Origin: a virus
IMG/VR virus record: IMGVR_UViG_3300050821_001542
Coordinates: 1-48,501 of that record
DNA length: 48,501 bases
Direction: 5' to 3' (one strand)
Part shown: in pieces, positions 16,174-33,254 of the stretch
How the letters are laid out: every line of letters starts with the position of its first letter
Position numbering within the stretch: the stretch's first letter is position 1
Translations under genes and position numbers: made by a program
Notes under the pieces: model-generated
What the model was told of the DNA's origin: nothing
Seen by the model: the letters and a program-made list of their open reading frames with translations, nothing else
The model's database searches: none

Positions 16174-16539
16174 TTATTTCACCGCCTGATTCGTGTAGTT
16201 GGTCTGGGCTGTGGCTACGGCATTGAGTTGCGCCTGTACCGCCGCCTGTGTCGCCGTCCCGTTATGGAAGGCCAGGTAGACCGTATCCGCCGCGTTCACC
16301 GCCGAGACAAAGGCGTTGAGGATGGGCTTCTCGGTCGCCTGCTGCGCGGCGGTCAGGGTGGGGTAGTCCGCCGTGGCCTTCGCTACCAAGGCATGGGCCG
16401 CCGCAAGCGCCTGTCCTGCCGTCTGATCGAATTGCGAGGTGTAGCCGGGAGCGAGAGCGGCGGGCGGAGTCGTGGCGGTGGCGCCGCACCCGAACGTCAG
16501 TGGAAGGGCGAGCCATACGGAGAGCAGGGCGAGCTTCAT
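16174..16539 (-). CDS. Predicted lipoprotein of the lysis cassette, 121 aa
   Basis: The N-terminus MKLALLSVWLALPLTFGC is a lipoprotein-type signal (Cys18). A Pro/Ala linker and a long helical domain (GQALAAAHALVAKATADY, then QLNAVATAQTNYTNQ) follow. It overlaps the holin-like gene by ATGA. Placement beside holin-like and endolysin genes and a helical periplasmic part suit an outer-membrane spanin subunit, but no matching inner-membrane spanin was found, so this is a suggestion. Confidence 0.6.
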   Translation of the reverse strand: MKLALLSVWLALPLTFGCGATATTPPAALAPGYTSQFDQTAGQALAAAHALVAKATADYPTLTAAQQATEKPILNAFVSAVNAADTVYLAFHNGTATQAAVQAQLNAVATAQTNYTNQAVK

Positions 16540-16847
16540 GGGGTCACCTTCGGAGTGGTGCTGAGTTCTACGGGTGTTACAGGTGCGGCGGCAGGGCCAG
16601 CCTGAGCCGCATTGTTGATGGCGGCAGCAACAGCAGGCGCGCTGGCGTTCTGAGTGATAAGGCCCACCCATGCGCGACAGAGGGCCAGCCCACCGTTGAC
16701 GCCGATGACGACCCATGTACCGACGTGCACGCTGCCTACGCCGTTGCCAGCGGAGAGGTCGTTGCCCGCAAGCAGCGCGCTGATAACGGTGAGGGTGGTG
16801 ACGAGGAAGGAAAGGATACCGGCGGCTGTGCTCTTCCAGTCTTTCAT
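16536..16847 (-). CDS. Holin-like membrane protein, 103 aa
   Basis: ATG 16847 is chosen because it overlaps the stop of the 21-codon leader (ATGA); an ATG at 16859 also exists. Hydrophobic helices lie at about residues 8-28 (AAGILSFLVTTLTVISALLAG) and 43-62 (GTWVVIGVNGGLALCRAWVG). The C-terminus is Ala/Pro-rich. Small size, two spans and adjacency to an endolysin support a holin, which would time release of the endolysin. Confidence 0.65.
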   Translation of the reverse strand: MKDWKSTAAGILSFLVTTLTVISALLAGNDLSAGNGVGSVHVGTWVVIGVNGGLALCRAWVGLITQNASAPAVAAAINNAAQAGPAAAPVTPVELSTTPKVTP

Positions 16848-16909
16848 CGTGCCGCCCATCTGCCGAGCAACACGGCAATCCGAAAGTTCCCGAACTTGAT
16901 AGCGCGCAT
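16844..16909 (-). CDS. 21-residue leader peptide coupled to the holin-like gene
   Basis: A perfect AGGAGG four bases before ATG 16909 opens a 21-codon frame (MRAIKFGNFRIAVLLGRWAA plus Arg) whose TGA overlaps the holin-like ATG. The holin-like start has no good ribosome site of its own, so its translation probably depends on this mini-gene. Confidence 0.55.
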   Translation of the reverse strand: MRAIKFGNFRIAVLLGRWAAR

Positions 16910-16927
16910 TGGGCCTCCTGAAGAATC

Positions 16928-16969
16928 GGCCCTCTCAGGGCATGGTCTACGCCGCGCAGCGAGAGGGCC
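16928..16969 (-). promoter_or_regulatory. Hairpin before the leader/holin-like start
   Basis: GGCCCTCTC (16928-16936) and GAGAGGGCC (16961-16969) form a perfect 9-bp stem with a 24-base loop, between the endolysin stop and the AGGAGG of the leader. It may tune holin synthesis or RNA stability; there is no T-run for termination. Confidence 0.5.
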
Positions 16970-17009
16970 ACCGGAAAACAGACTCTTCTGCTGGCAGGAA
17001 TGATACCAC

Positions 17010-17459
17010 TCACACCTCGCGGAAGAACACCTGATTTGCGATGGTTGCCGTATATTCAACCGCCGCCTCATCCCATTTCTGCGGGAACGGGATGGCCTGC
17101 CCGCCCACGTCGATGGTGGCCGTCGTCTGGATGCCCCTGGGCGCGTAGTAGAGCGTAGCGCCGCCTGTCAGGTCGGGCAGGTTGCCGGAGGCCGCTTGTA
17201 CGGCGATATTGACCGCTGTCTGCCATGCGGCCCAATCAGCAGCGTCCTCCGGGTCGGGGCCAAGCCTGATCTCCGGGTCGGCTGGATAGGTCATCGAGGA
17301 GAACTGGAGACGCTTCAGGCACTCGTCGGCCACGGCTGAGTTGTCCCGCGCCGCCCGGTTGAGGATCACGTTGGCGACGCTGGCCATGCCCTGTTGCCCG
17401 CCGGCACGGTTCTCTCGCCAGATGGTGAGGATGAGCGTCGTCTGGTCGTAGAGGGTCAT
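17010..17459 (-). CDS. Endolysin, Hydrolase_2/SleB-type cell-wall hydrolase
   Basis: 149 residues. The N-terminal pattern LTIWRENRAGGQQGMASVANVILNRA matches the Hydrolase_2 family (E, then G, then VA.VILNR), with E16 at the expected catalytic Glu. An aromatic C-terminal part has GGATLYYAPRG and PFPQKWD. These enzymes cleave peptidoglycan glycan bonds as lytic transglycosylases. No signal peptide, so it needs a holin. The ATG 17459 overlaps the XhlA-like stop (ATGA). Confidence 0.8.
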   Translation of the reverse strand: MTLYDQTTLILTIWRENRAGGQQGMASVANVILNRAARDNSAVADECLKRLQFSSMTYPADPEIRLGPDPEDAADWAAWQTAVNIAVQAASGNLPDLTGGATLYYAPRGIQTTATIDVGGQAIPFPQKWDEAAVEYTATIANQVFFREV

Positions 17460-17722
17460 CTTCCGCCCACAGTCTTGTAGATTTGGAGCACTACCAGTAT
17501 GAGACCCAGAATCGTCCCGATACTGCCGAAGGCCCATGCCGCTCCTTTCAGCCATGTGACGACCTTCTCGATTGCGCCAACCCTCTTGCCGAGTTCCGCA
17601 TTCGCAGCCTGATTGTCTTTATGACGCTCGTCAGAGTTGGTCTCAACGCGGGTCATATTGTTGTTGAGGTTTATGATCTCGCGCTCTACCGCGGCGATCC
17701 GTCCGATGACGCTATCGGCCAT
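17456..17722 (-). CDS. XhlA-like lysis protein, 88 aa
   Basis: Residues ~5-45 are a charged coiled coil (GRIAAVEREIINLNNNMTRV) and a single membrane helix ends the protein (~60-82, GAAWAFGSIGTILGLILVVL). This order is that of XhlA/hemolysin-type proteins, which sit beside phage holins and endolysins and assist lysis. It is coupled to the endolysin by ATGA and to the gene upstream by overlap. Confidence 0.7.
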   Translation of the reverse strand: MADSVIGRIAAVEREIINLNNNMTRVETNSDERHKDNQAANAELGKRVGAIEKVVTWLKGAAWAFGSIGTILGLILVVLQIYKTVGGR

Positions 17723-17921: not shown

Positions 17922-20045
17922 TCACTGCAACGTCACGCTGCCTGAAATCGAGATGCTTCCACTGATCCCCACATTGGGTGGCGTGGGAGTGTAGATCGTC
18001 CAACTCCCATTTGATACAGGTGAATCTGCATATCCCGGACACCCATGCACATAGGCGTAGAGCGTCACCGCCGTGGTCACCGTGTACGTCGTCTGATTCG
18101 TGACCGGGGTAGGGTTGGTGTCGAAGTAGATATAGCTCCCGCAGCCGGAGGTCGCGGTGGATGCAGTCACAACGGTGGGATTGGTCACGGCCCCAGCAGC
18201 AGGAGAGAACGTCGGTTGGGCCGCAGTCGGTGTTCCCGCAAACTCTAATCCTCCCATGCTCGGAGGCGAGTGCCATGCATTCCCAGCTTGATCCGTCGTC
18301 TGCCCTGCAATCGTCACGCCTGCATACTTCGCGGGCGAGCTGGACAGGATGTTGAAGTCGAAGTTGTCCAACTGGCTTTCGGAGGTCAACACAGTAGGCG
18401 GCTGATTGACTAGCGTGGGGTTGGTGTAGAGCGAGTGGCTTCCTGTCCACGGATTCGAGGTCAGGTTGTAGGCGATGTTGTAGTCCTCAACTGTGGGGGT
18501 GAAAACGTCCCACATCGTCGCCGTGCCGCCGTTGGTGAATTGGAGAACGATGTTGTCTTTCGCGGTGATGGAGTAGCTGGAGCAGTTGATTGGCGGAACG
18601 GTGTTGTCCGATGAGTCTTGGCACACCATGTCCATCACGGTTCCGGTATAGCCCACAAGCGTGTTGTGCTCGAAGATCATCTGCGTATTCCCACCAGCCA
18701 GCATCCCGGCGGAGTTCTGCACTCCGGCAGCGCGGCAGAAGTCAGAGAGGTGCGTGTTGTAGTCGGACGGAGTGCCGGTGATCGGTTGCGACATGCGATA
18801 GCAGTTCGCCACTACCAGATTGTTGATGTACGTTTCAGAACTTTGCGGGCCGGACTTCATGTTGCCGCCCATGTTGCCGAAGAAGTACGAGTTCGTGATA
18901 GACAGCGGCGTGCCAATGCCATGCCCAAAATCCGGTCCGTCCTGCGTGTTGAGCGTGAAGTAACAGTAGTTGCAGCTAAACGGGAAGGGGCTTGTCGGCG
19001 TGCCGATTGCGTCTCCCTGCCCTCCGGAAACGTCGTCGTAGCAGCCCTGCGAGGCAATCGGAATTGCGGTTGTGAACGGCAGATGAGACTGAGCGCACCC
19101 GCTCCAGTCGATTCCTAGATAGGACGCCGTGAGTGACCCGCTGGAGACTTGCCCTGAACCGGGGTCGAAGTCCAGCCCGGTCTGGCCGTTCATGTAAACC
19201 CACACACGCGTCATCGTCCACGGCCCACCGATGGAGCCGATGAGTCCCTTCGATTGAAAGCCGTGGATCGCTACGTCTTGCAGAACGATATTGCCGTTCG
19301 TCGGTGAGCCGTAGCCTGCCTGAATTCCGTAGGCTGTGTTGTTTCTGTCCGTCCCTCCGTTACCGAAGAGGTCTAAGCATCGGATGGTGACATATTGCGA
19401 TCCCGTCAGGCCCAAGGCGTGATATTGCCCGGAGTAGTTGATTGCCAGCAGGTAAGCCGTCTTGCTTGAATCAGGCACTTGCCGGACATGATTCATGTAG
19501 GTAATCGTCGTTCCGCAGGAGGCGAAGTTCGAGCCTTCGAGGATCGTAGGATTCCCCAGCGTCCCGGAAGGCACGTCCGGCGGCTCCATTGACGCACCGA
19601 TGCCGCAGCCGAATTGCCCATCAGGGACTCCGCCGGGACAGTTGGGAGAATCGGCCCCAGAGATGCGCCCTGCTGTTGATTCCGTGGAGAAGTTCGAGAA
19701 GATGACCGTATCCCCACCGGAGATCACCCAGCCAATGTTGGCGTACTGCCACGGATCGGAATAGAGGTAACGCGGATCGGAGAAGGGACATGCTTGGCTC
19801 TGCCCGCCCGACGGATTGAATGGTGTAGTCCCTAGTCCTGTACAGTCTGCCGTCACGCCCACAGAAGAAGCAGAGTGACGTGGCCCACCGTTTACCGGAT
19901 CGACGGCCCAATTCGCCAGCCACAGTTGCAGGGCACTGGCAGGCGGCATCACTTGAGGATGGACGGCCTTCGGGAACAGAGGGAAGTATTCTGCGCACGC
20001 AGGCAGGGCGCAGAGTAGCAGGACGAGTGGGATAAGGCGCTTCAT
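17922..20045 (-). CDS. Exported right-handed beta-helix protein with chitobiase-type C-terminal domain, 707 aa
   Basis: Begins with a Sec signal MKRLIPLVLLLCALPACA; a lipobox reading (LPAC, Cys17) is also possible. Residues ~100-590 have irregular beta-helix repeats of the pectate-lyase/parallel beta-helix kind (for example NIVLQDVAIHGFQSKGLIG, TYINNLVVANCY, MIFEHNTLVGY) with many Cys. Residues ~615-695 match a CHB_HEX_C-type Ig-like domain (PTFSPAAGAVTNPTVVT...). Beta-helix proteins in phages are usually tailspikes or polysaccharide-degrading fibres. A signal peptide on such a protein is odd, since virions assemble in the cytoplasm. It may be a secreted depolymerase or surface adhesin. Confidence 0.7.
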   Translation of the reverse strand: MKRLIPLVLLLCALPACAEYFPLFPKAVHPQVMPPASALQLWLANWAVDPVNGGPRHSASSVGVTADCTGLGTTPFNPSGGQSQACPFSDPRYLYSDPWQYANIGWVISGGDTVIFSNFSTESTAGRISGADSPNCPGGVPDGQFGCGIGASMEPPDVPSGTLGNPTILEGSNFASCGTTITYMNHVRQVPDSSKTAYLLAINYSGQYHALGLTGSQYVTIRCLDLFGNGGTDRNNTAYGIQAGYGSPTNGNIVLQDVAIHGFQSKGLIGSIGGPWTMTRVWVYMNGQTGLDFDPGSGQVSSGSLTASYLGIDWSGCAQSHLPFTTAIPIASQGCYDDVSGGQGDAIGTPTSPFPFSCNYCYFTLNTQDGPDFGHGIGTPLSITNSYFFGNMGGNMKSGPQSSETYINNLVVANCYRMSQPITGTPSDYNTHLSDFCRAAGVQNSAGMLAGGNTQMIFEHNTLVGYTGTVMDMVCQDSSDNTVPPINCSSYSITAKDNIVLQFTNGGTATMWDVFTPTVEDYNIAYNLTSNPWTGSHSLYTNPTLVNQPPTVLTSESQLDNFDFNILSSSPAKYAGVTIAGQTTDQAGNAWHSPPSMGGLEFAGTPTAAQPTFSPAAGAVTNPTVVTASTATSGCGSYIYFDTNPTPVTNQTTYTVTTAVTLYAYVHGCPGYADSPVSNGSWTIYTPTPPNVGISGSISISGSVTLQ

Positions 20046-20239
20046 TGCTTCACCTCAGCCGGGGAACTTAGCAGGCGAAGGGCGTCTGTGAGGGCTACCA
20101 TGTAGCCGTAGTGCCAGTAGGCCCGCTCAGTGCTGCCATCATTCAGATGAAGCTGTTCCGAGAAGCAGGAGGGATGGTTGTCTTCCAGCCACTTTCTAGT
20201 CCCGTCTCTTCGCTGTTCGAGCTTCTCAAATTCGTTCAC
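20042..20239 (-). CDS. Hypothetical protein, 65 aa
   Basis: GTG start (GGAG six bases upstream) overlapping the preceding stop; the end overlaps the ATG of the beta-helix gene. Product: a charged helical protein without signal peptide (EKLEQRRDGTRKWLEDNHPS), unlike both neighbours. Possibly an adaptor or chaperone for fibre proteins by position only. Confidence 0.55.
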   Translation of the reverse strand: MNEFEKLEQRRDGTRKWLEDNHPSCFSEQLHLNDGSTERAYWHYGYMVALTDALRLLSSPAEVKQ

Positions 20240-20727
20240 TTCGTCTCCTTGATCGCTACCGCCGTTCCGTTCAACTGAAACGTCCCGTCGCTCATTAGGG
20301 AGAAGCACACAGTAGGCAATGCCGTTACGCACCACTGCTTGCTTACAGTCACCGGCGGCGCAGGCAAAGCCGGAACCGTCACTGGAGGCTGCGCTACGCC
20401 GTTGATCGTCCAGTTGATCGTCTGCTGCACGGCAGTCTCGGCAATCTGGAACACCTTGGCATATCGCGGGCAGGAATCGGGTGGGCGTCCATTCGCTCCA
20501 TCGGGGTAGTCCACCACGTTGGTCTGCACGGTCACAGTGATTGGAGCGTAGGCTGGAGGACTCGCCAGCGGGCAGGAGGGCAGAACGACCTGCTGGTAAG
20601 TATCTCCAGCCGGAACGGTAACGACCGTCTGTAGCGTCTGTTGCGTGGAGGGGACGATGGTGACCCACGTCTGCGCATGGAGCAGCGGTGCGAAGAGAAG
20701 AAGGGCGGGAATCAGTTTACGGTACAT
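20236..20727 (-). CDS. Exported small protein of the fibre cluster, 163 aa
   Basis: Sec signal MYRKLIPALLLFAPLLHA, cut probably after LHA; the mature part is beta-rich with four cysteines and Pro/Val/Thr-rich stretches (PAGDTYQQVVLPSCPLASPP), ending GTFQLNGTAVAIKETK. It overlaps the tail-fibre gene by 16 bases. No family recognised. It shares the N-terminal export signal with three neighbouring fibre-type genes. Confidence 0.6.
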   Translation of the reverse strand: MYRKLIPALLLFAPLLHAQTWVTIVPSTQQTLQTVVTVPAGDTYQQVVLPSCPLASPPAYAPITVTVQTNVVDYPDGANGRPPDSCPRYAKVFQIAETAVQQTINWTINGVAQPPVTVPALPAPPVTVSKQWCVTALPTVCFSLMSDGTFQLNGTAVAIKETK

Positions 20728-23700
20728 GCGATGTTCTCCGTTCCCCCGCTGGCTGTGGTTCCTACGTGGGTAAAGGTCACCGTGTTGGCACTCACGGCAG
20801 AGATGTAGGCAATGGTGGTCGCCGCCGCCGCCGTGGAATTGGTCGGCGAGAAGACGCAGTTCGATGATGACGTGACGCCCGTGATGGTTGCCGAATCCGT
20901 GGTCGCCGTCGTGAAGGTGACCGTTCCGCGCAGGGAGAAGACATTAGAAGCGGTGACGCCGGAGTCGGTAACATCATCCCCGCCACCGGAAGTCACCCAT
21001 GATGCCAAGTGGCCGTTGTTCAGAGCGCCCGAAGCGGTGGCGACGAACGCCCCTCCGCCAGTCACGCTATAGCTCGTCCCCCACGCTGAACCTGTTGACT
21101 TTGGTACGCCAGCGCCGGGATAGACCATGCCTGAAGCTGGGCAGTTAGTGCCCGTGGACTGACACACATTGTTGCCACCCACCGTCAGCGCTGTGCCGAA
21201 GGTGCCGGTTGCGGCCTTGAGCGTCCCGCTGGTGTCGCCAGCAGAGCCATTGCCAACATCAACCTTGCCCGCTGAATCACGCGATAGCCCTGTGTCCGGT
21301 GTACTCGAACCGGGTCCGCCCGCACCCGAAGACCAGCCATACACATAGGTGCTGGGCTGGGAGATGTAAGCATTTGTGATCGCGGTCGTCCATGCTACGC
21401 CATGCTTGCCGAAGTAAATTACGCCATCATTGGCGGCGGTGATGTCATACGCCGCACCGCCCGCCGCCTGATTGTTGATGAGCATTCCTACGGTGGGGTA
21501 GTTGCCCTGCAACTGGAAGGAGTCTGTGCCGGAAAGCTGCTGATTCAGGACGACTCCGGTTCCCGGAACAGCCGAAAGTACAGGCGTGCCTCCAGTGCCG
21601 ACTGTGAATGATTCGCTATCCGTAATCGTACTGCTGGTTGTCACGCCATCGTCGAGATGCGAGTTCGCAGTGATGGTTGTCGCGCTTCCCGCCTTGGGGA
21701 TATACCCCGCCGTAAGGCCGGAGATGCCGGAACTGCCGCAGCCCACACACCCACCGTCAGCATGGATCACCTGCTGGACACGCAAACCCCCGTTGGTGAT
21801 ATGGAACTCATCGTTCTGATAGTCCTGAATCAGATCCGATCCGCCCGCGTCCTCCGTAATAATTCCGTAGGTATGCTGCCACGATCCGAGATGGTTTTGT
21901 ATCTCGAACAAAGATCCGTGCGGTGCCGATTCTTGATAGATGTCGTCGTTGAAAACTCCTGGCGCAGAAGTACTGCCGGAGTTCGCGTCGATCAGGTTGG
22001 GCGGATCGACTCCAGTGCGTGCTCCGGTGCTGGGGTTGTAGTAAAGTCCCAGCCCGTTGTTGTTGAACATATTGAGAAGGGAACTCGTAGACGCGAATCC
22101 CTGTCCGCCAGCTCCCAAGACCCACGCGCTGCATCCCTGCACGCTGGGCGTGTCGCAGTTCTGGTAGTTGAACTTTATGTTGTGAATCGTCTTGTCGAGA
22201 TGCGGATTCAGCAGCGTCATGCTGCCCGTATAGGTGATGCCGCTCGGCGCAACGACTGTGCTCACCAGGCACTGCTCATAGGTATTGCAGGTCGAGGTGT
22301 TGTTGTACCAGATGCGCGCAGCCTGAAAGAGGTGAAACGCCGCGTTCGAGGTTCCGTCTGTGGTCTCCGGCTCCAAGCCTGTCTGCGGGATCGGAAACGC
22401 ATCGGTGTTGCCGAACGCTTCGGTCGTGTAAGGCAGGTTAGTTCCGTCCACGGAAGGCAGGCCGATGTAGGCGGTGTGCTGCCCGTTCAGACTCAGGTTA
22501 GTGTCGAACCCGATGATGTAGCAGTGTCCCTTCGAGACGTAGACGTTGCCAACGATAGGGAAGACCAAGGGCAGATGGATCGTCTGTGTTGGTGAGCTTC
22601 CTGTAGCCGATGTGGTTACAGATTCCTCTACGAAGCCTTGAGTGCCGTTGCCGACGACACAGACCGAATCTCCGCCGCCGGAAGTGAATGACCCCGACCC
22701 GCCGGAGAACGTAATCGTCTCTGCGACGGGCGTACCGAAGCTGGTGTTCGTGTTGACCGTCGTGCTGGTGGAATAGCCGTAGACCGAGGTGGTCGGAAGC
22801 GTGGCCCCTGTGGTCGAAAGCTGGTTGATCCACGTCACCGCGCCCACGGAGAATGCCGTGCTCGCGCCGTTGAATTCGCCTGTGGTCGCCGTATTTCCGG
22901 TGATCCACTCGCCCGGTCCAGGAAAGCACTTCTGGCCCGCAATGTTGAAGCCGCCGCAACTGATGCCGCTGAAGGTCAGCGTGTCGGGGCTGCTGGTATG
23001 CGTCGAGAGTGTCAGTGTCGGGATCGGCCCTTCCCCGCCATACTGATATTCATGCTGTCCGCACTGATCGCTGGCCCACATGCAGTCGCCGGACATGGCG
23101 AAATATTCGTCATGGTTCAGACAGTCGCCCACACCCGAGCAAGTGAAGTACCCAGACAGTGCGGCCTTTCCGCCGGCCGTCGCATAATTCGTCGCCCAGA
23201 ATTGCAGCGTGTCGTATTTGCCTTCGACAAAGTAGTTGTTGGAGGTCTGCCCGCCTGCCTTGCCCGAACTCTGACCTAGAGAGAAATACCCAGAGAGCGA
23301 TGGATTCCCGTTGGCCCACGTCGCGTCATTGAAGGCCGCAATGTTTCCGAATCCTCCTCCGCCGAAGTAGCCCGTCGATCCGGGGGTATAGTTTAGATTA
23401 CTGGCGCGGTTTCCACTGGTAGCACTATAGGGAATTGCCGTCGTATTGCCGATGGGAGGTGGAGATGCGAAGGTCAGGTAGCTTGCGATAGGAGAATAAG
23501 CGCCACCATCCTGCGATAGGTTCGCAATCGCCGAAGCATCGGTATTGATGGATGCCTTTCCTGACGTAGGGGACGGTAGCCCTCCGCTGGTCGCAGGAAG
23601 GGTGACCTGTGTTCCCGTGCCGGTGAATGTACCGCTCTTGGCGGTGAAATTTCCGCTCCCGTCCGTGGTGACGCTCGAATCTCCGCCAACCGTCGTAGTG

Positions 23701-24356
23701 CTGCCGGCGTTCGGGTAGTACCCCATGCTGTATTGCGTGGCAGGGTTGACCGTGCCGCTGCCGGGTGGCGTCAAGTACGTCCCGGCGTTGCTGAGGAACT
23801 CAGAGCCGTTTCCGGTGTTGATGGGAAGAACGTGCGAGGAATCCGTGCTCACGTGAATGATGGGCGTGGTCGTCGGATTGACCACGTTGCCCTGAAAGCC
23901 TCCGTCGGTTGCCACTGACACCGCACTCACCCCGCCGGGGGAGGTGCCGTTCTTGCCCAACTCCTGTGCGATCTCGGTCAGCTTATCCAGCCCGTTCTCA
24001 ATCGACTTCTGCGGCGTAGGCATGTTGTCGGTGAACACCGTGGTCTGCGTGAGCGGAGTGGTACGCGAGACGACTAGCGTCTGCGTGTTGGGGCACGCGG
24101 AGTTTAGCGTGACGCTGCCCCCGTTGTCGTAGTTGTTATTGACCGGCTTGACGGCGTAGGCGCTCGATGGCAGGACGACGCTGTTCTGGGTCACCGTGAT
24201 CGCATTGGCCGCGCTGACAGAGAACGTGAAAGGATACGGGCCTACGCTGCCCGTGCAAGTGAAGGTCACGCTCGTGGCTTGGCTGACGACCGTGGCATGG
24301 GCAGAGGCCGCGAGTACGAGGGTGGCGAGTGCAGCGATCTTCGAGAAGAGACGCAT
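20712..24356 (-). CDS. Giant tail-fibre protein with T7 gp17-like N-domain behind a signal peptide, 1214 aa
   Basis: The ATG at 24356 is placed nine bases after AGG; an ATG two codons upstream (24362) is the alternative. Residues 1-21 are a Sec signal (MRLFSKIAALATLVLAASAHA). Next, to ~residue 140, comes a domain patterned like the N-terminal virion anchor of T7 tail fibre gp17: FTFSVSAANAITVTQN, LVVSRTTPLTQTTVF, then the helix IENGLDKLTEIAQELG. The rest is Gly/Ser/Thr-rich beta-repeat fibre with TGTFGTALTVGG-type repeats near the end. The gp17-like part would attach to the tail; the signal peptide ahead of it is unexpected. Confidence 0.75.
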   Translation of the reverse strand: MRLFSKIAALATLVLAASAHATVVSQATSVTFTCTGSVGPYPFTFSVSAANAITVTQNSVVLPSSAYAVKPVNNNYDNGGSVTLNSACPNTQTLVVSRTTPLTQTTVFTDNMPTPQKSIENGLDKLTEIAQELGKNGTSPGGVSAVSVATDGGFQGNVVNPTTTPIIHVSTDSSHVLPINTGNGSEFLSNAGTYLTPPGSGTVNPATQYSMGYYPNAGSTTTVGGDSSVTTDGSGNFTAKSGTFTGTGTQVTLPATSGGLPSPTSGKASINTDASAIANLSQDGGAYSPIASYLTFASPPPIGNTTAIPYSATSGNRASNLNYTPGSTGYFGGGGFGNIAAFNDATWANGNPSLSGYFSLGQSSGKAGGQTSNNYFVEGKYDTLQFWATNYATAGGKAALSGYFTCSGVGDCLNHDEYFAMSGDCMWASDQCGQHEYQYGGEGPIPTLTLSTHTSSPDTLTFSGISCGGFNIAGQKCFPGPGEWITGNTATTGEFNGASTAFSVGAVTWINQLSTTGATLPTTSVYGYSTSTTVNTNTSFGTPVAETITFSGGSGSFTSGGGDSVCVVGNGTQGFVEESVTTSATGSSPTQTIHLPLVFPIVGNVYVSKGHCYIIGFDTNLSLNGQHTAYIGLPSVDGTNLPYTTEAFGNTDAFPIPQTGLEPETTDGTSNAAFHLFQAARIWYNNTSTCNTYEQCLVSTVVAPSGITYTGSMTLLNPHLDKTIHNIKFNYQNCDTPSVQGCSAWVLGAGGQGFASTSSLLNMFNNNGLGLYYNPSTGARTGVDPPNLIDANSGSTSAPGVFNDDIYQESAPHGSLFEIQNHLGSWQHTYGIITEDAGGSDLIQDYQNDEFHITNGGLRVQQVIHADGGCVGCGSSGISGLTAGYIPKAGSATTITANSHLDDGVTTSSTITDSESFTVGTGGTPVLSAVPGTGVVLNQQLSGTDSFQLQGNYPTVGMLINNQAAGGAAYDITAANDGVIYFGKHGVAWTTAITNAYISQPSTYVYGWSSGAGGPGSSTPDTGLSRDSAGKVDVGNGSAGDTSGTLKAATGTFGTALTVGGNNVCQSTGTNCPASGMVYPGAGVPKSTGSAWGTSYSVTGGGAFVATASGALNNGHLASWVTSGGGDDVTDSGVTASNVFSLRGTVTFTTATTDSATITGVTSSSNCVFSPTNSTAAAATTIAYISAVSANTVTFTHVGTTASGGTENIACTVN

Positions 24357-24388
24357 TGGCATTTACCTGTACTCGTAGAGGATGACCG

Positions 24389-25636
24389 CTAGTTTGCCCC
24401 AGAGAGCGTGCATACGCTTCCAGCAAGAAAGTCAGGGCCGGTCGCGGGGTACAACTTGATGCTTGTAATTGCGGCTGTGTTTCTCCATTGGCCATGAAAA
24501 CTCTGCGTCAAAATCTCCCCGCCGGTGTTGATGTTGCTGCGTTCTCCCTGCGAGACCCACGTTTTGAAAAATGAGGTGTTGGCATAGTCGTCGAATACTG
24601 CATCAAGTTGAGCGAAAGAATTCGCCTGATCGCTTGCGGCGGTCGCGTTGCCGATGTCTCCATTGGCTCCAGCGGTAATGGAGCCGTTGGACGATGAGTA
24701 GCTTGAGCCTGCCCCGTACCCGCCGAACACATACCCATAGTCGTAGTTGTTCCCTGTATCGCCGTTGATCTGGAAGAAGATGTCGTCGTAAGCCTGGGCA
24801 ACGTTAGTTCTCAGATGGCACGAGAGCTTGAGGTGTGGGAATGGCGTCGCTGGGATGCTGGTGAAGGTGATGTTGGTCGTCGTACTGCCTGACACGGTTA
24901 TCTGCGCGATCTGATTGCCACAGATCGAACCCAGCGTGCAGGTCTGCCCGTTGACCGTAGTGGAGGCATTCGATGCTGCCGCTCCAATTGTGTTCGTGCT
25001 AACCGTAACCGGCGAGGAACCGTTGAATGTGGCTCCGCTCGCCGCCCCAGAGCCACTATTGTTGAACGTCACCGCCTGCCCGGTAGAACCGCCGCTGCCA
25101 CTTCCCGATGCCACGCTCGGACTCGACTTGAATATCAGGTCGAGGGTGATCTGCGCCGAGTTGACGCTGTTGCCGGTGATCGCCACAGTCAATGCGCTGC
25201 GCACCACAGGGCGTCCGGTCGTGGCGCTCGTGATCGAGGTAAGCTGCGCTGCGCTCGCGCTGCCGTTTGATGTCAGCAGCCCCAAGTCCAGAGCGAAGCC
25301 GTCCGCGTCGGTGATCGTGACCGTGTAGTTCGCCGTTGGCTCCGTAGTGCCCGGCGTTTGCCCAACCTGATAGAGCACGTATCCGGTCAAGTTGTAGGCG
25401 TTCAGGATGCCGCCCACGGGGTAGGAGCCGGTCAACGGGATGCTCGTCGAGGGGTAGGTGTGCGCCGAGGCGTCCGCCGTGCAGGTCAGGGTGATGATGA
25501 CCGTCTCAGCGTCAGGCACGCGGCTGTTGGCGTTCTGCGTGCTGGTCACGTTGCTGACCTTGCAGGTGCCAGCAGCCCACACGGACGCAGGCAGCATCAG
25601 CATCCCAGCTAGGAGTGCGAGAATCTTTCGTTTCAT
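24389..25636 (-). CDS. Exported fibre-type protein, 415 aa
   Basis: ATG 25636 has GAGGAAA at the right distance and starts a clear Sec signal MKRKILALLAGMLMLPASVWA. The mature protein is beta-rich and Ser/Thr/Gly/Asn-rich, with a low-complexity hinge near the middle (SGSGSGGSTGQAVTFNNSGS) and a C-terminal globular part. That part (DDIFFQINGDTGNNYDYGYV, WVSQGERSNINTG, IKLYPATGPDFLAGS) resembles carbohydrate-binding receptor domains of phage fibres. It lies just upstream of the gp17-like gene in the same unit. Confidence 0.65.
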   Translation of the reverse strand: MKRKILALLAGMLMLPASVWAAGTCKVSNVTSTQNANSRVPDAETVIITLTCTADASAHTYPSTSIPLTGSYPVGGILNAYNLTGYVLYQVGQTPGTTEPTANYTVTITDADGFALDLGLLTSNGSASAAQLTSITSATTGRPVVRSALTVAITGNSVNSAQITLDLIFKSSPSVASGSGSGGSTGQAVTFNNSGSGAASGATFNGSSPVTVSTNTIGAAASNASTTVNGQTCTLGSICGNQIAQITVSGSTTTNITFTSIPATPFPHLKLSCHLRTNVAQAYDDIFFQINGDTGNNYDYGYVFGGYGAGSSYSSSNGSITAGANGDIGNATAASDQANSFAQLDAVFDDYANTSFFKTWVSQGERSNINTGGEILTQSFHGQWRNTAAITSIKLYPATGPDFLAGSVCTLSGAN

Positions 25637-25650
25637 AAGTTTCCTCACGG

Positions 25651-26907
25651 TCAGAATTTTACCCCCCACTCCGAGAACTGTTCGAGATTCTTTTTCAGCC
25701 CGTCCACGGAGCCTATACAGCACTCCACCCCAATGCCCTTGATCTGCTCGGCGATCTCCTGCGCCTCGGCAAAGCAGGCGTCCAGCGACTCTCCGGTGGT
25801 GACCACGGAAGCGAAGCCGGGCGTGTCTGACTTCTGCGGCATGATCCAGAGTTCGTCTCCGAACATGGTAGCGTAGCGGAACTTGATCTGCTCGCGGTAT
25901 TTATCCGGGAACTCGACCAGCAGCGGGTTATTGATCGACCACTTCGACTCGACGATGAACTGCGCGCCGTACTTGCCAGAGAACTTTGGCTCGACCAGTT
26001 TTCCGTCCGCTCCCTGCCGCATGATCTCGGCGAGGTTCGAGATCATGTTCAGTTGCAGCTCGAATGGAGGCGACCCTCCCCGGCAGCATGGGTCGCACAG
26101 GTACGTCGTATCGCCACCCATGCGGGACTCCAGCGAGAGCATCTGGCGGTACTCATACTTTTCGAGCGTCGGAGCCAGAGCCTCGTAGATGCTCACCAGG
26201 TCCTCCGGCATCTTTGCCCAGGGCTTCGCCACGCAGATGTAGCCCTCGTCCTTCTTCTCCGTGCCTAACAGGGCCATTGCCGGAAACTTTCCGTCCACCG
26301 AGTACGTATCAATGGCAATGTCGAGCGTTTCGGGCAGGTCGTCCTCGACGATGAACTCCATCTGCTCCGCCGCCGGCCCCAGCTCCGCGGCAAACTTGTC
26401 CAGACGGTTCTTCGAGCCTTCGTAGCCCTCGACGGGAAATGTCTCGGTGTCGTTACGGGTCAGGCTGATCTTCACCCACACCTTGTCCTCGCGGCCCTTG
26501 AGGTACTTCCGCAAGGCTGTCATGCCCTGCACCACTTCGTAGGGAGCCTGCGGGATGCCCAGCGTCTTGAAGTATGCCTTGGCCTCCGTGCGGGCCGTCT
26601 CCAGTTCGTCTCCGTTGCGCGCGCCCCACACGCGCTTGCCTTTGTCGGCGAGATATTCCTGCAAGGGGCCGTTGTGCAGGTCGGGGAACACGAACAGGTC
26701 AACCTCGTCGATAATGCTCCAGATGTCTTTCACCCGCTCGTACTCAGGGAAGCCCTCGCCGATCTCCGTCTTGGCGCTGGAGGGGAAGTCCGCCACCCAC
26801 GGGGAGGTGTAATAGACCTTGCCGAAGCTGCGCGAAAGCGTGCGTGCCAGTTCTGCGAACAGGCCGTTGTCCACGATGCACACGCTCTTGCTCTTGGGGT
26901 CGTCCAC
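25651..26907 (-). CDS. ATP-grasp enzyme (GARS/carboxylate-amine-ligase-like)
   Basis: GTG 26907 is preferred (GAGGA upstream, TAGTG overlap with the mini-gene before it); 418 residues. The N-terminal domain (~8-105) is a Rossmann-like pre-ATP-grasp fold (SVCIVDNGLFAELARTLSRS, DLFVFPDLHNGPLQEYL). The ATP-grasp part follows: TEAKAYFKTLGIPQAPYEVV, the ATP-lysine strand VWVKI (~K147), FIVEDDLPETLDIAIDTYSV, and CCRGGSPPFELQLNMISNLAEI near the active-site end. ATP-grasp enzymes join a carboxylate to an amine or thiol via acyl phosphate. In this operon the substrate might be a virion protein or cell-wall precursor; unknown. Confidence 0.7.
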   Translation of the reverse strand: MDDPKSKSVCIVDNGLFAELARTLSRSFGKVYYTSPWVADFPSSAKTEIGEGFPEYERVKDIWSIIDEVDLFVFPDLHNGPLQEYLADKGKRVWGARNGDELETARTEAKAYFKTLGIPQAPYEVVQGMTALRKYLKGREDKVWVKISLTRNDTETFPVEGYEGSKNRLDKFAAELGPAAEQMEFIVEDDLPETLDIAIDTYSVDGKFPAMALLGTEKKDEGYICVAKPWAKMPEDLVSIYEALAPTLEKYEYRQMLSLESRMGGDTTYLCDPCCRGGSPPFELQLNMISNLAEIMRQGADGKLVEPKFSGKYGAQFIVESKWSINNPLLVEFPDKYREQIKFRYATMFGDELWIMPQKSDTPGFASVVTTGESLDACFAEAQEIAEQIKGIGVECCIGSVDGLKKNLEQFSEWGVKF

Positions 26908-27008
26908 TATTCCTCGATTCCCAACTCGGCGCAGATGCACGCCCAGATGTGCGTCCAAGAGTCGCATCCGCCAACGTCGATCCTGTCGTATACGTTCACC
27001 GTCCGCAT
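26907..27008 (-). CDS. 33-residue mini-gene
   Basis: ATG 27008 has GGAGATGAC directly upstream, one base after the preceding stop, and its TAG overlaps the ATP-grasp GTG (TAGTG). The peptide MRTVNVYDRIDVGGCDSWTH continues with Trp/Cys residues (IWACICAELGIEE). The spacing is that of a genuine coupled gene. Confidence 0.5.
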   Translation of the reverse strand: MRTVNVYDRIDVGGCDSWTHIWACICAELGIEE

Positions 27009-27009
27009 G

Positions 27010-30000
27010 TCATCTCCTGATCGAAAACTTCTTTGTCGCGCTGCGCTTGGTCATGCCGGGGAGAGTCTGCGGCTTAGTCGATGCTCCGCCTGATGCGCCT
27101 TCGTGGATTGTAGGCGACCCCATAGAATCCGCCGCGAGTTCCAGTAGATCGCGGTACGAGTATTCGTGGTCGGGATCGGTGAGCGCCTGCGTTACCGTCT
27201 CGACGGCGCTGACTCCGGTGATCGGTACTACGCGCCCAGCGGCGTACTCGCCCTGCTTCTCGGCCTTCTTCGGGCCGCTGTCGCTGCGCTTGTAGATTGG
27301 CCTTCCGGTCTCGTCCTTATTGAACGCCAGCCCCATCCCAGCACCCAGTAGCGGAGCCGCCTTGCTGACGACGAACTCCGCCGTGCCTGCAATCGGCGAG
27401 TCGCTCGCGACTCGCTTTGCCAGCGTCATCGCGTCCTTCGGAGCGCCTGCAAAGAACCAGTCCGCGTACATCTCTTTGCCGTGCTCGTCAGTGCCGAGGT
27501 AGACGCGATCCATGTTCTTCGTGTCCGAGGGATCATACTTGCCGCCGATGGCGATGCTCATGGCGGCGGTCATGGCGATGCCCGTGGCAAACGACTTTGC
27601 CCAGAACATCCGCGCAGCAGCTCCAGCAGGGCCGCCCTCGAATGCGTACTTCCCGGTGAGCACATTGGAGAATGTCCAATCCGGGGCTAGCAAGAAGAGG
27701 CGGCTCACGTCGCGCACCGTTTTTCCGGTTCCAAGCACGTCCCAGTTCAGGCCACCGTAGGCCGAGTTGACTTCCTTGGCGATGGAACGCCGCGTGGCGA
27801 AGATTTCCTCGTTCGTGGCCTCTGGGTGCTTCGAGCGCCACGCTGCTTCTTTCAGTGAGGCGTCCATCACCTTGAACTTGCGCTGCACCACGTCGAAGGT
27901 GAACTCCGTGGTGGCCTTGAACGCCGCGTCTACCTGCTTGACCACAGGCGCGTTGGCGAGCTTGTCGAAGCCCGTAGGGATGCTCGACTTGCTCAGGCCC
28001 TCATATGCCTCGTAGGGCGTCTGCGTCTTGGCTGTGGTGAGGCCGTCTGCTGCCCACTCGCGCTCCGCCGAAGCGAACTCCGGGGACTTCAGGTCGGACG
28101 CCATCGCCTTCGTGAACTCGGTCAGCCCCATGTTGTTGAACGCGGTGATGCCGAGCGCCTTGACGTGGAACAGCGACAGTCCCAGTTCCAGCCCTTTGAC
28201 GTAGCCCTGCGACTTCAGCAGCGGTGCCAGCTTCGTGCCCGCCAAGCCCTGCTCGAACAGCGGGCGCATGGCGTCGGCAACTTCCTTCGGCACGTAGAAG
28301 GACTGCTCGCGGGCCTGCAACGCGCGCTGGCCGGGTGCCATCTCCACCCAGCCGTCCGGGTGGCCGTCCTGCGTGCCGTATTTGCCGAGGTCGGTGTTCT
28401 TCAGTTCGGTCGCCAGCAGCTTCGTCGCCGCCACGGTCGCGTGGCGGTCTCCGTACACCGATAGCGCATCGACGGCGTTCACCGTGCGGGCGTCGAGCCT
28501 GCCGGTCTTGAGCGCGTCGAGGATCGTAGGGTAGGCACGCTCTTTGGCGAACGGCGTGCTCTTGGCCATGATCGCGCTGCCCGTGCCCTTCGGCTGCTCG
28601 CCTTCGAGAATCCGCGTGAGGATGTGGGGCGAGTAGTGCGACGGGTCAATGCTCGACTCCATGAAGCCGAGTTGCCTGCCTTCGTCGAGCGCGGCGGTAT
28701 AGTAGGCGGTCAACCGCTGGTCGGCCTCCAGCAGTTCAGGCGAGGGATTTATGGCCCGCTCGATGGACGGGATCAGCCCCTTCAGGCGTTCCGAGTCGCC
28801 GTTGCGAATCTGCTCCAGATCGGCGGCCAACTTGTCGGGCGTGCCTTTGTAGTCCCGCAGGATGCTCAGGGCCTCCTGGTCGCGGTAGTCGGGGATCAGC
28901 CGCTTGATCTCGTCCCGCAGTTGCGTGGTCGCCGCGATGCGGGTGTCCCGCTGGCCCGCAAACAGCGTCCGCAGCACCTCCCGGCCGTAGCCCTTGCTGG
29001 CGAGTCCAGCCTTGATCTTATTCAGCCCCTCGCGGGCGGCTGCGAGGCGCTGGGCGTTCTGCGGCGCTACGTTGGCGATGGTCGGGTCGCCCTCCGCCAG
29101 AGAACGCGCCTGCGCCCTCTGGCGCGCAGCCTGATAGTCCTCCGCGTGGAGTTCGGCCTGCTTGTCGCCGTCCTGCTCCTGTAGCCACAGTTCGTGCGTG
29201 TCAGGCTCGTTGTCCTTCATCCACTTGCGGGCTTCCATGCGGGAGAGGAACTTGCCGTCCGGGGTGACGAAGCCCCGGCCTGACTTCATGGCGGAGCGGT
29301 CGTACAGGTCGTTGATCGAGAGGGGCTTTTCCTCGCCTTCCTCGGATGTTCCACGTGGAACATCGCCCGATTCGATGGCCTGAGACTTCAGTTCCCACGC
29401 CTTATCAATCACTTCCTGCTCGTGGATAGCCGGATTGTCCAGCACGTCGTCAGCCTTCGTGGGGTCGGCCTCAAGCTGCTCCAGCGACACGGGTTTCTTC
29501 GCCAGCACGCGCTCGGCCACGTCCGCGTGGCTCTCGTCCTCGTCACCTTCGATGAAGCCCGCTCCGAAGCCGTGCTGCACCTCAATCGCGGGCCTGAGTC
29601 CCGGCGGGGCGTCAGGCTTTACCGGGGGCTGCGCGGCGAGCCGTGTGGCCGTCTCCTCCGGCGTGGTGCCGTCCTTGGCGTACACGTCCATCGTGGCCTG
29701 CTGTGCCTCTCCCTTGCGCAGTGGCAGGCCGTGGGCGATGAGGTTCAGTGGGATGATGAGCGCGGCGTTGCCTGCAAAGTCTTGGGCGCTGGGCAGCTTG
29801 CCGTCGAGCAGGTCGGCAGCGGTCGTCAGGGCCGTCGCCTGGTACAGTCCCTTGACCGCTGTGGCAGCAGGGCCAGCCAACTTGCCCACGGGCAGCCCGC
29901 CAGCCAACTCCGTCGCAGCGCCCGTCACCGCGCCCTTGGTTGCAGCCCACGTCACTGCCCCGGCGCGCCGCAGCAGGTCAGGAAAGTCCTTCACGTCCCC

Positions 30001-30564
30001 GTTCTTGATGCCCTGTACCAGCACTTCACGCAAAGCAGCCGGCAGAGCAAACCCGCCCGCCGCCGCACCGAGTCCCGCACCGGTGATGTTGCCCGCGATC
30101 GGCACCTCCGACCCGGCGGCTCCGCCCGCCGCACCCCCCGCCAGTCCGCCGGCAATGTAGAACGGGAGGTCAGCCACCATCTCCGTCACGCCCGACACGA
30201 ACTTGTCGAGCAGGCCGGGGTTGCGAATCTCCTCCGGCATAGCCTCGCGGTGATGCAGGCCGAAGATGGACTCTTCCCACCCCACCTTCACGTCGTTCTC
30301 GATGGTTGGGTCAAGATCCATCGAATCGTAGTCTCCTCCGATGGAGCGGAGTTGCGTGTCGATCTCGTCCCGGTTCTGGTACGCCGTACCGGGGTCGATC
30401 TTCAGCATGTTGCCGTGGACGCCTGCCTGCCACGCATCCTGTCCGGTGTTGGGAGGGAGTGTTCCACGTGGAACACTGGCCGGGGTCACCGTCTGCCAGT
30501 CGTCCGGCTGGACAGTCTCCCAATCGGTCGGGTCGGCTACTGCGGAGGCTTGCCGGGGTGCCAT
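27010..30564 (-). CDS. Large internal virion / DNA-ejection protein, 1184 aa
   Basis: ATG 30564 has GGAGGGAAGAC upstream. Residues ~120-260 carry Gly/Ala-rich membrane-seeking segments (FYIAGGLAGGAAGGAAGSEV, GAGLGAAAGGFALPAALREV). The middle is highly charged and helical. The C-terminal third contains MFWAKSFATGIAMTAAMSIA and a long soluble tail. Size, position after the tail-tube and internal-core genes, and hydrophobic patches fit ejectosome proteins such as T7 gp15/gp16. No transglycosylase motif seen. Two 20-bp palindromes are embedded in the gene (29345-29364, 30458-30477), both encoding VPRGT. Confidence 0.7.
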   Translation of the reverse strand: MAPRQASAVADPTDWETVQPDDWQTVTPASVPRGTLPPNTGQDAWQAGVHGNMLKIDPGTAYQNRDEIDTQLRSIGGDYDSMDLDPTIENDVKVGWEESIFGLHHREAMPEEIRNPGLLDKFVSGVTEMVADLPFYIAGGLAGGAAGGAAGSEVPIAGNITGAGLGAAAGGFALPAALREVLVQGIKNGDVKDFPDLLRRAGAVTWAATKGAVTGAATELAGGLPVGKLAGPAATAVKGLYQATALTTAADLLDGKLPSAQDFAGNAALIIPLNLIAHGLPLRKGEAQQATMDVYAKDGTTPEETATRLAAQPPVKPDAPPGLRPAIEVQHGFGAGFIEGDEDESHADVAERVLAKKPVSLEQLEADPTKADDVLDNPAIHEQEVIDKAWELKSQAIESGDVPRGTSEEGEEKPLSINDLYDRSAMKSGRGFVTPDGKFLSRMEARKWMKDNEPDTHELWLQEQDGDKQAELHAEDYQAARQRAQARSLAEGDPTIANVAPQNAQRLAAAREGLNKIKAGLASKGYGREVLRTLFAGQRDTRIAATTQLRDEIKRLIPDYRDQEALSILRDYKGTPDKLAADLEQIRNGDSERLKGLIPSIERAINPSPELLEADQRLTAYYTAALDEGRQLGFMESSIDPSHYSPHILTRILEGEQPKGTGSAIMAKSTPFAKERAYPTILDALKTGRLDARTVNAVDALSVYGDRHATVAATKLLATELKNTDLGKYGTQDGHPDGWVEMAPGQRALQAREQSFYVPKEVADAMRPLFEQGLAGTKLAPLLKSQGYVKGLELGLSLFHVKALGITAFNNMGLTEFTKAMASDLKSPEFASAEREWAADGLTTAKTQTPYEAYEGLSKSSIPTGFDKLANAPVVKQVDAAFKATTEFTFDVVQRKFKVMDASLKEAAWRSKHPEATNEEIFATRRSIAKEVNSAYGGLNWDVLGTGKTVRDVSRLFLLAPDWTFSNVLTGKYAFEGGPAGAAARMFWAKSFATGIAMTAAMSIAIGGKYDPSDTKNMDRVYLGTDEHGKEMYADWFFAGAPKDAMTLAKRVASDSPIAGTAEFVVSKAAPLLGAGMGLAFNKDETGRPIYKRSDSGPKKAEKQGEYAAGRVVPITGVSAVETVTQALTDPDHEYSYRDLLELAADSMGSPTIHEGASGGASTKPQTLPGMTKRSATKKFSIRR
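29345..29364. promoter_or_regulatory. parS-like 20-bp perfect palindrome, copy 1
   Basis: GATGTTCCACGTGGAACATC is a perfect palindrome. Its 16-bp core TGTTCCACGTGGAACA (29347-29362) differs from the bacterial parS consensus TGTTTCACGTGAAACA by one symmetric base pair, a change known in natural parS sites of some bacteria. It encodes DVPRGT in the host gene. Confidence 0.6.
30458..30477. promoter_or_regulatory. parS-like 20-bp perfect palindrome, copy 2
   Basis: AGTGTTCCACGTGGAACACT, again a perfect 20-bp palindrome with the identical 16-bp core at 30460-30475, 1113 bases from copy 1. Codon phase is the same (SVPRGT). Flanking bases differ from copy 1 yet keep the symmetry. Confidence 0.6.
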
Positions 30565-32354
30565 GTCTTCCCTCCGTCTGTCGAGTAGCGATCCTTGCCT
30601 GTGCTTGGCGAATGCTGGACGATGGCCTGAGCAGCGGCTTCCTTCTTTGCGCCCGGTGAGCCGGGGGCCGGATCAATGAGCGAAGAGAAGAACCCGCCAA
30701 TCCTGTCCGAGATGGACTTCTTCGGAGCCTCGGCACCGAATAGCTGGTTGATCTGGTCGCTGATCTGCTCCTGAACGGCGGGCTGCAATACGTCCTTCAT
30801 CGCCGCCACCTTGTCTTCGGTGGGGTTCTGGTTGACCCGTTCCTGCCACTGCTGGTACGTCAGCGCCATGCGCTTTGTCTGCCGCGCATTCGGTGTGGCG
30901 GCCGCTGCGACTTCCTGCGCTGTGGCGGTGCGCGGTAGCACGGTGACCGGGAAGCTGTCGTTCAATAGTTTCACCGCCGCCTGGGTGTTGGGGTCGGACT
31001 CGTAAGCCTTGCTCGCTCGGATCGCCTCCATCACGTCGGAGGACTTCATCTTGCCCTTGCCCTCTCCGGCCATGCCGTACATCTGCGCGTCTGTGAAGGT
31101 GTGGCCCTGCGCAAGCGCAGAGAGGATGTTACCGAGCGTCTCACTGGACTGCTCTTGCGAAATCTGCTTCTCCATGAAGAGTTCTTCGCGGCCCTCTGCC
31201 CGCCGCTCGCGCTGCACTTGGTCGCCGTACTTCGTCAGTCCCTCATAGAAGTCCTCGAACTCCGGGTCGTCCTTGTGCGCCGCGAGCATGGCGCTGGCCT
31301 GCGTGTACTCGTTCTTGTGGAAGAGGTCTACCACGTCGTTCTTCGTCTTCTCCGCCTGCTGCTTCAGCCCCACGTTCAACTGCGTGGCGTGCGAGTTGAA
31401 CCCGGCGGCGAGAACCTGAGACTGCGTTTCGGTGATCTCTCCGCGCGCGAGGCGGTCAGCATTGTCGGTCAACGCCCCAGCTTCGTCGAAGCGTCCGTTT
31501 GCCGGGTTCGTGAACTGCTGAATCTTGGGCACGAGTTGTGTCCTGAGCGCGGACTGCCCTTCGGCCCAATCCTGATATTTGATGTGCGACTCAACCGCCT
31601 CTAGCGCCTGCCCCTTGTAGGTGTCGAGTGCCTCCTGCGGAACGTCGGGAAACATCTCGCGATGCTGCGTGATCTGGTCGTAGACCTTCTGGTTGACCTC
31701 CGGCGAGGCGTTGGTAATGGCGTTCTTGATCTGAAGCTCCTGCCCGTCCTGCCGGAATTGCCTCTTTATGTCATTCGCCTCTACATCTCCGATGAGGTTC
31801 GACTGCACGAGACTATCAACCGACTTATAGTAGGTGGCCTGCGCCGCCGATGCCTTCGCGGTATCTCCTAACGCCATCGCACCCGCGTAGTCTTGCGTGA
31901 GCGTCAGAGACTGCTGCTTCAGTTGTGTTCTCCCCTCGTCCCCCATAAGAAGGTACTGGCGGCCCTGTCCCATGAGTTCGACGCGAGAGCGCAGGCTGTC
32001 GGCGTTCATCTGGATCGCTACCGAAGCTGGTGACGTAGACCACCGTTTCGCAATTTCGTTGAGGGTGCTGTTCTGGCTCTGCATGACGCTAGGTATGTCG
32101 CGGGAGTTCTGCGTCTTTTTGAGTTGAAGTTGGTAGGCGTCGTCTGCCGCCTGCAATTCGTTCCCCGCGGCGATCACGTCAACTCTCTCCTGCGCCTTCT
32201 TGAGAAAGAGGTCGAGGTCTAGGCCAGTGAGAGCCGCGTCCTGCCCAGATGCTCCAAGGCTGGATATAGCTTCTCCGGCCCGTCCCGCCTCCGATGGAGA
32301 TTCGGTCGGGAGGTTCACCGGATCGAGCGTGGGGACACCGGGAACTCTGGGCAC
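30537..32354 (-). CDS. Internal virion protein, helical, 605 aa
   Basis: GTG 32354 is chosen: GGGGAGCTAAC precedes it and the upstream gene stops at 32356. The N-terminus is Pro-rich (PRVPGVPTLDPVNLPTESPS). Most of the protein is long helices with Gln-rich stretches (QQSLTLTQDYAGAMALG, AGFNSHATQLNVGLKQQAEK), and it ends with STDGGKTWHPGKPPQ. This matches the internal-core/ejection proteins of podoviruses lying between gp14-like and gp16-like genes. No enzymatic motif seen. Its 3' end overlaps the next gene start by 28 bases. Confidence 0.7.
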   Translation of the reverse strand: MPRVPGVPTLDPVNLPTESPSEAGRAGEAISSLGASGQDAALTGLDLDLFLKKAQERVDVIAAGNELQAADDAYQLQLKKTQNSRDIPSVMQSQNSTLNEIAKRWSTSPASVAIQMNADSLRSRVELMGQGRQYLLMGDEGRTQLKQQSLTLTQDYAGAMALGDTAKASAAQATYYKSVDSLVQSNLIGDVEANDIKRQFRQDGQELQIKNAITNASPEVNQKVYDQITQHREMFPDVPQEALDTYKGQALEAVESHIKYQDWAEGQSALRTQLVPKIQQFTNPANGRFDEAGALTDNADRLARGEITETQSQVLAAGFNSHATQLNVGLKQQAEKTKNDVVDLFHKNEYTQASAMLAAHKDDPEFEDFYEGLTKYGDQVQRERRAEGREELFMEKQISQEQSSETLGNILSALAQGHTFTDAQMYGMAGEGKGKMKSSDVMEAIRASKAYESDPNTQAAVKLLNDSFPVTVLPRTATAQEVAAAATPNARQTKRMALTYQQWQERVNQNPTEDKVAAMKDVLQPAVQEQISDQINQLFGAEAPKKSISDRIGGFFSSLIDPAPGSPGAKKEAAAQAIVQHSPSTGKDRYSTDGGKTWHPGKPPQ

Positions 32355-32355
32355 G

Positions 32356-32841: not shown

Positions 32842-33254
32842 GGGGCCACCTCGAAGATGCGGCAGTGCAGGTCGCACGTCTCGCCCTTTGGCCCGAACTT
32901 TCGCAGGGTACCTTCGTAGGCGAATCCGAGCAGCTCGAAGAACTTGCGCGGCACGCCCGTGACGCACGTAGCCTGCACGCGCTCGAATCCGTAGTCCGAA
33001 GCCATGACCGGAAGGCACTCGCGCAGGTGACGCAGGCAGGTCAGAGGCTTCGCGCGGAAGAAAGGCGTGGGCAGCATCCACGCCTCTCCCCTACTCCACT
33101 CCATGTTGACGATCCCGCCCGCGAACACAGGCTCTCCATCCTCCAAGACACACAGGGCCGCGCTTCCGGGGGAGAAGTAGGCGCGTATGTCCACGCCCAC
33201 CGGTAGCGGAAGGCAGTAGAGATGCGCTCTGGTCAACTGCACAATTTCGATCAT
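32838..33254 (-). CDS. T7 gp13-like protein with acetyltransferase-type fold, 138 aa
   Basis: The fold pattern is GNAT-like: AALCVLEDGEPVFAGGIVNM as central strands, FRAKPLTCLRHLREC helix, and FERVQATCVTGVPRKFFELLGF near the acyl-CoA end. T7 gp13 (internal virion protein A) and its relatives share this fold and help virion assembly without known catalysis. Its position just before the gp14-like gene is as in T7. Coupled by ATGA to it. Confidence 0.7.
   Translation of the reverse strand: MIEIVQLTRAHLYCLPLPVGVDIRAYFSPGSAALCVLEDGEPVFAGGIVNMEWSRGEAWMLPTPFFRAKPLTCLRHLRECLPVMASDYGFERVQATCVTGVPRKFFELLGFAYEGTLRKFGPKGETCDLHCRIFEVAP

Follow-up and report, generated by a model that had tools for sequence, protein, structure and literature searches.

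Tailed-phage virions are conventionally viewed as cytoplasmic products in which cysteines remain reduced. Tailed phages also use host Sec export in their lysis systems, through SAR endolysins and other signal-peptide-bearing lysis proteins; SAR endolysins are lysis enzymes that retain a signal-anchor, whereas the fibres described here carry signals that are predicted to be cleaved. The closest described virion components are the tailspikes Dpo31 and Dpo36 of Cobetia phage Carin1 (8ck1) and podoviral gp17-like fibres, which share with one of these fibres, P0002, a homologous anchor that starts at the same residue. In Carin1, ZP6, HTVC010P and marine-type relatives, a methionine lies immediately before the anchor and there is no signal peptide, whereas P0002 has one.

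A bacterial system offers a second comparison. The MAT fibre proteins of Bdellovibrio, like the proteins described here, are phage-fibre-like and bear signal peptides. They are exported by a diderm bacterium, but they are bacterial predation proteins, and no phage-tail docking domain is reported in the available text of that study (PMC10769870). By Pfam, P0001–P0004 lack the C-terminal chaperone–protease domain (S74 subfamily) that characterises MAT-type secreted fibres. A search of the open-access literature returned no prior report of signal peptides on tailed-phage fibres. The tail fibre is a known part, and the novelty appears to lie in its export route.

Signal peptides in a podoviral fibre cluster

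The window, which is the whole stretch of DNA analysed (48,501 nucleotides), is a 48.5-kb uncultured-virus record of a short-tailed, soil-type phage; its portal, capsid, connector, nozzle and internal proteins can be identified. Its fibre cluster consists of five minus-strand genes located 3′ of the internal virion protein genes and 5′ of the lysis genes. Fibre gene 1 (P0001, 415 amino acids (aa), 24389–25636) encodes a predicted signal peptide (25574–25636), a conserved N-domain and a shaft; in fibre gene 2 (P0002, 1214 aa, 20712–24356), the predicted signal peptide (24294–24356) is followed by a fibre anchor at approximately 23958–24293. The cluster also contains a small protein (P0003, 163 aa, 20236–20727; signal peptide at 20674–20727), a 65-aa protein of unassigned role that has no signal peptide (P0005, 20042–20239) and a spike-like gene (P0004, 707 aa, 17922–20045; signal peptide at 19992–20045).

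The remaining tail genes resemble those of Carin1. The tail nozzle (33256–36948, minus strand; phrog_376), a homologue of Carin1 gp36 (E = 8e-39), is the likely docking partner of the fibres, and the tail connector/adaptor (36900–37673, minus strand; phrog_394) is a homologue of Carin1 gp37 (E = 3e-8); in both genomes, the fibre genes follow those for the internal virion proteins. Three overlapping genes of internal-virion type (27010–33081, minus strand) served as a contrast set. The lysis genes (16536–17471, minus strand) lie directly downstream of the fibre cluster and encode a holin-like membrane protein (16536–16859) and an endolysin (17010–17471). The nozzle, connector, internal-type proteins and endolysin all lack signal peptides.

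Two further genes were noted. Between the internal-protein and fibre genes, positions 25651–26967 encode a 438-aa protein with 56–60% identity to proteins at the corresponding place in loci L112, L114, L119 and L120 and weak similarity to ATP-grasp phosphoribosylamine–glycine ligase (E = 3e-4), which makes a virion- or fibre-modifying ligase possible. A protein adjoining the major capsid gene (38162–38905) matches a 'tail fiber' PHROG, lacks a signal peptide and is possibly a head fibre.

An earlier note on this DNA, made from its letters, held that the products starting at 25636, 24356, 20727 and 20045 begin with Sec signals. This is borne out: all four open reading frames are present and their N-termini follow the n-h-c-AxA pattern. 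Predicted cleavage separates MKRKILALLAGMLMLPASVWA from AGTCK in P0001, MRLFSKIAALATLVLAASAHA from TVVSQ in P0002, MYRKLIPALLLFAPLLHA from QTWVT in P0003 and MKRLIPLVLLLCALPACA from EYF in P0004. Each N-terminus has the charged n-region, hydrophobic core and A-x-A site of a Sec/signal peptidase I substrate, and ribosome-binding sites are found upstream of the four gene starts. Signal peptides were called with a rule-based scorer that looks for a positively charged n-region, a hydrophobic core of 8 residues and agreement with the −3/−1 rule; it gave false calls on 0.9% of internal protein segments and on 4.6% of N-termini shuffled in place. In a hand-picked list of late genes from the window, the scorer was positive for 4 of 5 fibre genes versus 1 of 20 others (Fisher p = 0.002), the sole non-fibre positive among the 25 being the holin-like membrane protein.

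The P0002 anchor is in register with the predicted cleavage site

Searches with whole proteins were uninformative: P0001, P0002, P0003 and P0004 had zero matches in PHROGs at a cut-off of 0.01, and a Pfam search of all fibre proteins likewise returned zero. The P0002 anchor was detected in PHROGs solely when the mature domain was used as the query. Mature P0002 is predicted to begin at T22, and its first domain matches phrog_1640 (tail protein; E = 1e-12) with the first residue aligned to profile position 2. A profile of this domain matches the solved Carin1 tailspike Dpo31, which is seen in its docked state in 8ck1, the structure of the Carin1 tail, with E = 1.5e-18; residue 1 of mature P0002 aligns with Dpo31 residue 2, the residue after the methionine. 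The mature domain also matches the tailspike of Alteromonas phage ZP6, itself without a signal.

Structure prediction had been proposed as a check. For the AlphaFold2 model of the P0002 anchor (pLDDT 79), the best PDB matches were the Carin1 tail assembly 8ck1, LME-1, HRP29 and P-SCSP1u (E 1e-3 and weaker), with the T7 gp17 N-domain (7boz/7ey9) as a lower-ranked fold match and 9efk also matched, at modest E-values. The earlier description of a T7 gp17-like anchor directly after the signal therefore stands with respect to PHROGs, the Dpo31 profile and the fold, but not with respect to Pfam: PF03906 (Phage_T7_tail) had no match in the window even at E ≤ 10, and P0002 is not filed there. By its anchor homology and structural module, P0002 would be classed as a podoviral tail fibre with a gp17/Dpo31-type anchor. 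Within the cluster, a virion anchor was recognised in P0002 and not in P0001, P0003 or P0004; the structure prediction for the P0001 N-domain (pLDDT 44) was set aside.

A scan of viral contigs with the P0002 anchor domain yielded 80 loci. Nine of the ten nearest anchors are preceded by a signal peptide whose A-x-A-like end abuts the first residues of the mature protein (most often 'TV'), as the earlier note had suggested looking for in front of gp17-type N-domains in other phages. In the tenth (L115), a methionine replaces the signal peptide and directly precedes TV, and distant signal-less relatives of the anchor read TVSS after the methionine. This exact register in relatives between the end of the signal peptide and the start of the anchor shows that the signal is an exact N-terminal addition, the cleavage of which would restore an ordinary fibre start. 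On the tree of the P0002 anchor family, the signal-peptide state must have changed at least twice.

The trait is not confined to one phage: it is found again in numerous environmental phages and in three cultured phages of Acidobacteriota. For P0001, the relatives in L112, L115, L120, L202–L204, L207–L208 and L210–L213 also have the signal peptide, and runs of fibre genes with signal peptides occur in L002, L013, L044, L053, L078, L113, L120, L191–L194 and L202–L204. Of 50 fibres with a shaft domain in common, 18 have a signal peptide, distributed over 13 independent N-terminal clusters. Other canonical anchors are preceded by signal peptides as well (ISALPAGAALGGTEPIPTVQ in L004, LGLTKPDAPANTWGSKLN in L053 and its cousin in L078; also L091), and predicted signal peptides precede at least three unrelated fibre anchors. 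At this level of prediction, the trait is lineage-wide and widespread in uncultured phages. By contrast, signal peptides were absent from the fibres checked in six isolate controls with related heads (Acinetobacter phage 4316, Mel-JY33, Carin1, a Rhodobacteraceae phage, BL94 and HTVC010P). In L119, the position of P0001 is taken by a 93-aa, cysteine-free protein without a signal peptide (5653–5934), a swap like that in L115.

Cysteine pairing in signal-bearing fibres

Disulfide-bonded proteins tend towards even numbers of cysteines. Among proteins of at least 150 aa with at least four cysteines, and with cysteines near the cut site filtered, the number is even in 54 of 55 signal-bearing proteins versus 80 of 146 signal-less neighbours (80:66). 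When one signal-bearing protein is taken per cluster, the even:odd ratio is 52:1 at 90%, 43:0 at 50% and 28:0 at 30% identity. Without the cut-site filter, 63 of 66 signal-bearing proteins are even, as are all five of those in further loci. In the window, the numbers of cysteines after the signal peptide are all even: 6 in P0001, 20 in P0002, 4 in P0003 and 16 in P0004.

The cysteines also track the signal within families. In the anchor family, cysteines at positions 13 and 67/69 are present in all ten members of the signal-bearing clade and in none of the 32 signal-less members. The signal-less sister in L115 is a 358-aa fibre entirely without cysteine, and the adjoining fibre genes retain both signal and cysteines; L171, an independent gain of the signal, has eight cysteines outside the anchor. 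Shaft-domain fibres contain 0.75 cysteines per 100 aa with a signal peptide versus 0.14 without (p = 6e-5), in a test clustered on N-termini, whole-protein clusters collapsing through the common shaft domain. This pattern is hard to explain unless the signal-bearing proteins reach an oxidising place, that is, one outside the cytoplasm. The signals thus probably function: their proteins would enter an oxidising compartment and not be mere hydrophobic anchors.

Proteins of the internal or ejection type in the virion are cysteine-free in the window (0 in 2,062 residues at 27010–33081), and the same holds for large proteins of this type in relatives and isolates (L113–L120, L191–L194, L197 and L199). 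This may reflect a need to unfold and pass through the tail without trouble from disulfides.

Cultured phages with signal-bearing fibre loci

Tunturi_1 and Tunturi_2 are cultured, infectious podoviruses of Acidobacteriota (Tunturiibacter); the paper that describes them contains no proteomics, and signal peptides are not mentioned in the searched portion of its text (PMC11924767). As in the window, their fibre locus is a run of signal-bearing, cysteine-rich fibre or spike genes, with signal peptides on five of six genes (gp12, gp13, gp14, gp16 and gp17); the fibre N-domains differ from those of the window. P0003 is the counterpart of Tunturi_1 gp16 (32% identity). P0004 is approximately 30% identical to the 'virion structural protein' gp17 of Tunturi_1/2 and 28% identical to gp114 of the siphovirus Tunturi_4, all of which have signal peptides; in Tunturi_4, gp113 has one too. 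No signal peptide was found on the Tunturi_5 fibre genes checked or on the fibres of Tunturi_3, whose host strain is the same as that of Tunturi_1, which indicates that the host does not require an export route.

A proposed two-compartment route to the virion

Taken together, the sequence data make it likely that the window encodes virion fibres or spikes that are made by Sec export, cleavage, periplasmic oxidation and docking at the nozzle on lysis. A fibre synthesized with a cleavable Sec signal would enter the periplasm, where signal peptidase would cut it to the canonical fibre N-terminus and oxidation would give a disulfide-bonded fibre, while heads and tail nozzles, which have no signals, would be assembled, and the DNA packaged, in the cytoplasm. 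At lysis, the holin would open the inner membrane, the fibres would meet the particles, and the anchor would dock on the nozzle/connector. Sec export of the fibres, as a prediction, is well supported; that the proteins do cross the membrane, become part of the virion and dock after export, when the membrane ruptures or later, is our inference. Fibres can be added late in extracts of other phages. This and the anchor argue for late docking, as does the finding that no other clear signal-less receptor-binding fibre is seen in the window or in Tunturi_1/2. The weak point of the export route is that it gives no account of how large trimeric fibres would cross the outer membrane, or meet heads except at lysis. 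Tunturi_3, with its signal-less fibres, and the absence of a recognised virion anchor from P0001, P0003 and P0004 are counterpoints.

The earlier note had left a choice between proteins secreted or displayed by the infected cell and a virion export step undescribed for podoviruses; the register of the anchor and the lack of another obvious signal-less receptor-binding fibre in the window favour the second. The first is the main rival, in which exported depolymerases, adhesins or exclusion factors have borrowed fibre domains and act outside the virion. A signal peptide with even cysteines is compatible with any secreted protein, Bdellovibrio secretes signal-bearing chimeric tail-fibre proteins (PMC10769870), and loci in Ignavibacteria/Bacteroidota metagenome-assembled genomes (MAGs) carry secreted shaft-domain proteins. 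A secreted enzyme, however, has no need of a signal in exact register with a nozzle-docking domain; the signal-bearing genes occupy a structural operon position; and phages must bind their hosts, yet the obvious receptor-binding candidates in the window and in Tunturi_1/2 bear signals. We regard a purely secreted role as unlikely.

Export of virion fibres could also be reconciled with cytoplasmic assembly if one gene gave two forms, through an inefficient signal or a second start, with the cytoplasmic form entering virions and the exported form acting outside. Such dual targeting is highly improbable: no signal-less start codon with a ribosome site was found at the mature N-terminus in any of eight genes (the window and seven relatives), and the cysteine pairing points to the oxidised form as the one under selection. 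Slightly harder still to credit is an uncut hydrophobic N-terminus that serves, without export, as a structural or membrane-interacting anchor in the virion. A hydrophobic stretch is by itself no proof of cleavage, but the A-x-A-like motif is conserved among relatives, the canonical fibre N-terminus follows it immediately, and the even-cysteine signature is limited to signal-bearing proteins, the signal-less sister having zero. That start codons were misassigned or that hydrophobic N-termini arose by chance has a negligible probability, even with a scorer false-positive rate of 1–5%, given the ribosome sites before the starts, four signals in one cluster, signals in nine of ten close relatives and a cysteine parity that is independent of the signal-peptide rule; the comparative data refute an artefact.

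If virion fibres are routinely exported and oxidised, part of assembly would take place when the membrane ruptures or later, and free fibres could exist outside virions. Heterologous expression of such fibres in the cytoplasm might not succeed, as disulfides and signal cleavage would be missing. It is somewhat probable, beyond the window, that many environmental tailed phages of diderm hosts build their virions in two compartments, with fibreless DNA-filled particles in the cytoplasm and disulfide-locked fibres in the periplasm that come together only once lysis opens the inner membrane; the route would have been gained several times by fusion of a signal peptide to the precise N-terminus of the fibre, with or before the gain of paired cysteines. 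A signal combined with even cysteines offers a sequence rule for finding receptor-binding proteins among unannotated soil-phage genes, and the cultured Tunturi_1/2 make the export route testable now.

Host of the window

Genome contigs were scanned twice for prophages with the shaft domain. The first scan returned none, and the second returned MAGs from other phyla only, with several matches being secreted bacterial proteins; neither scan links the window directly to a host. Four loci (L094, L098, L102 and L107) are secreted proteins in Ignavibacteria/Bacteroidota MAGs that contain the phage fibre shaft domain (GNAAGAP motif). The assignment to Acidobacteriota rests on the Tunturi homologues, the sequences of which suggest such a host. 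A small lipoprotein-like gene, found at 16174–16527 and in L008 (39529–39912), has a 'TTPPAALAPG..xQFD' stretch in common with Tunturi_1, which again hints at a host among the Acidobacteriota.
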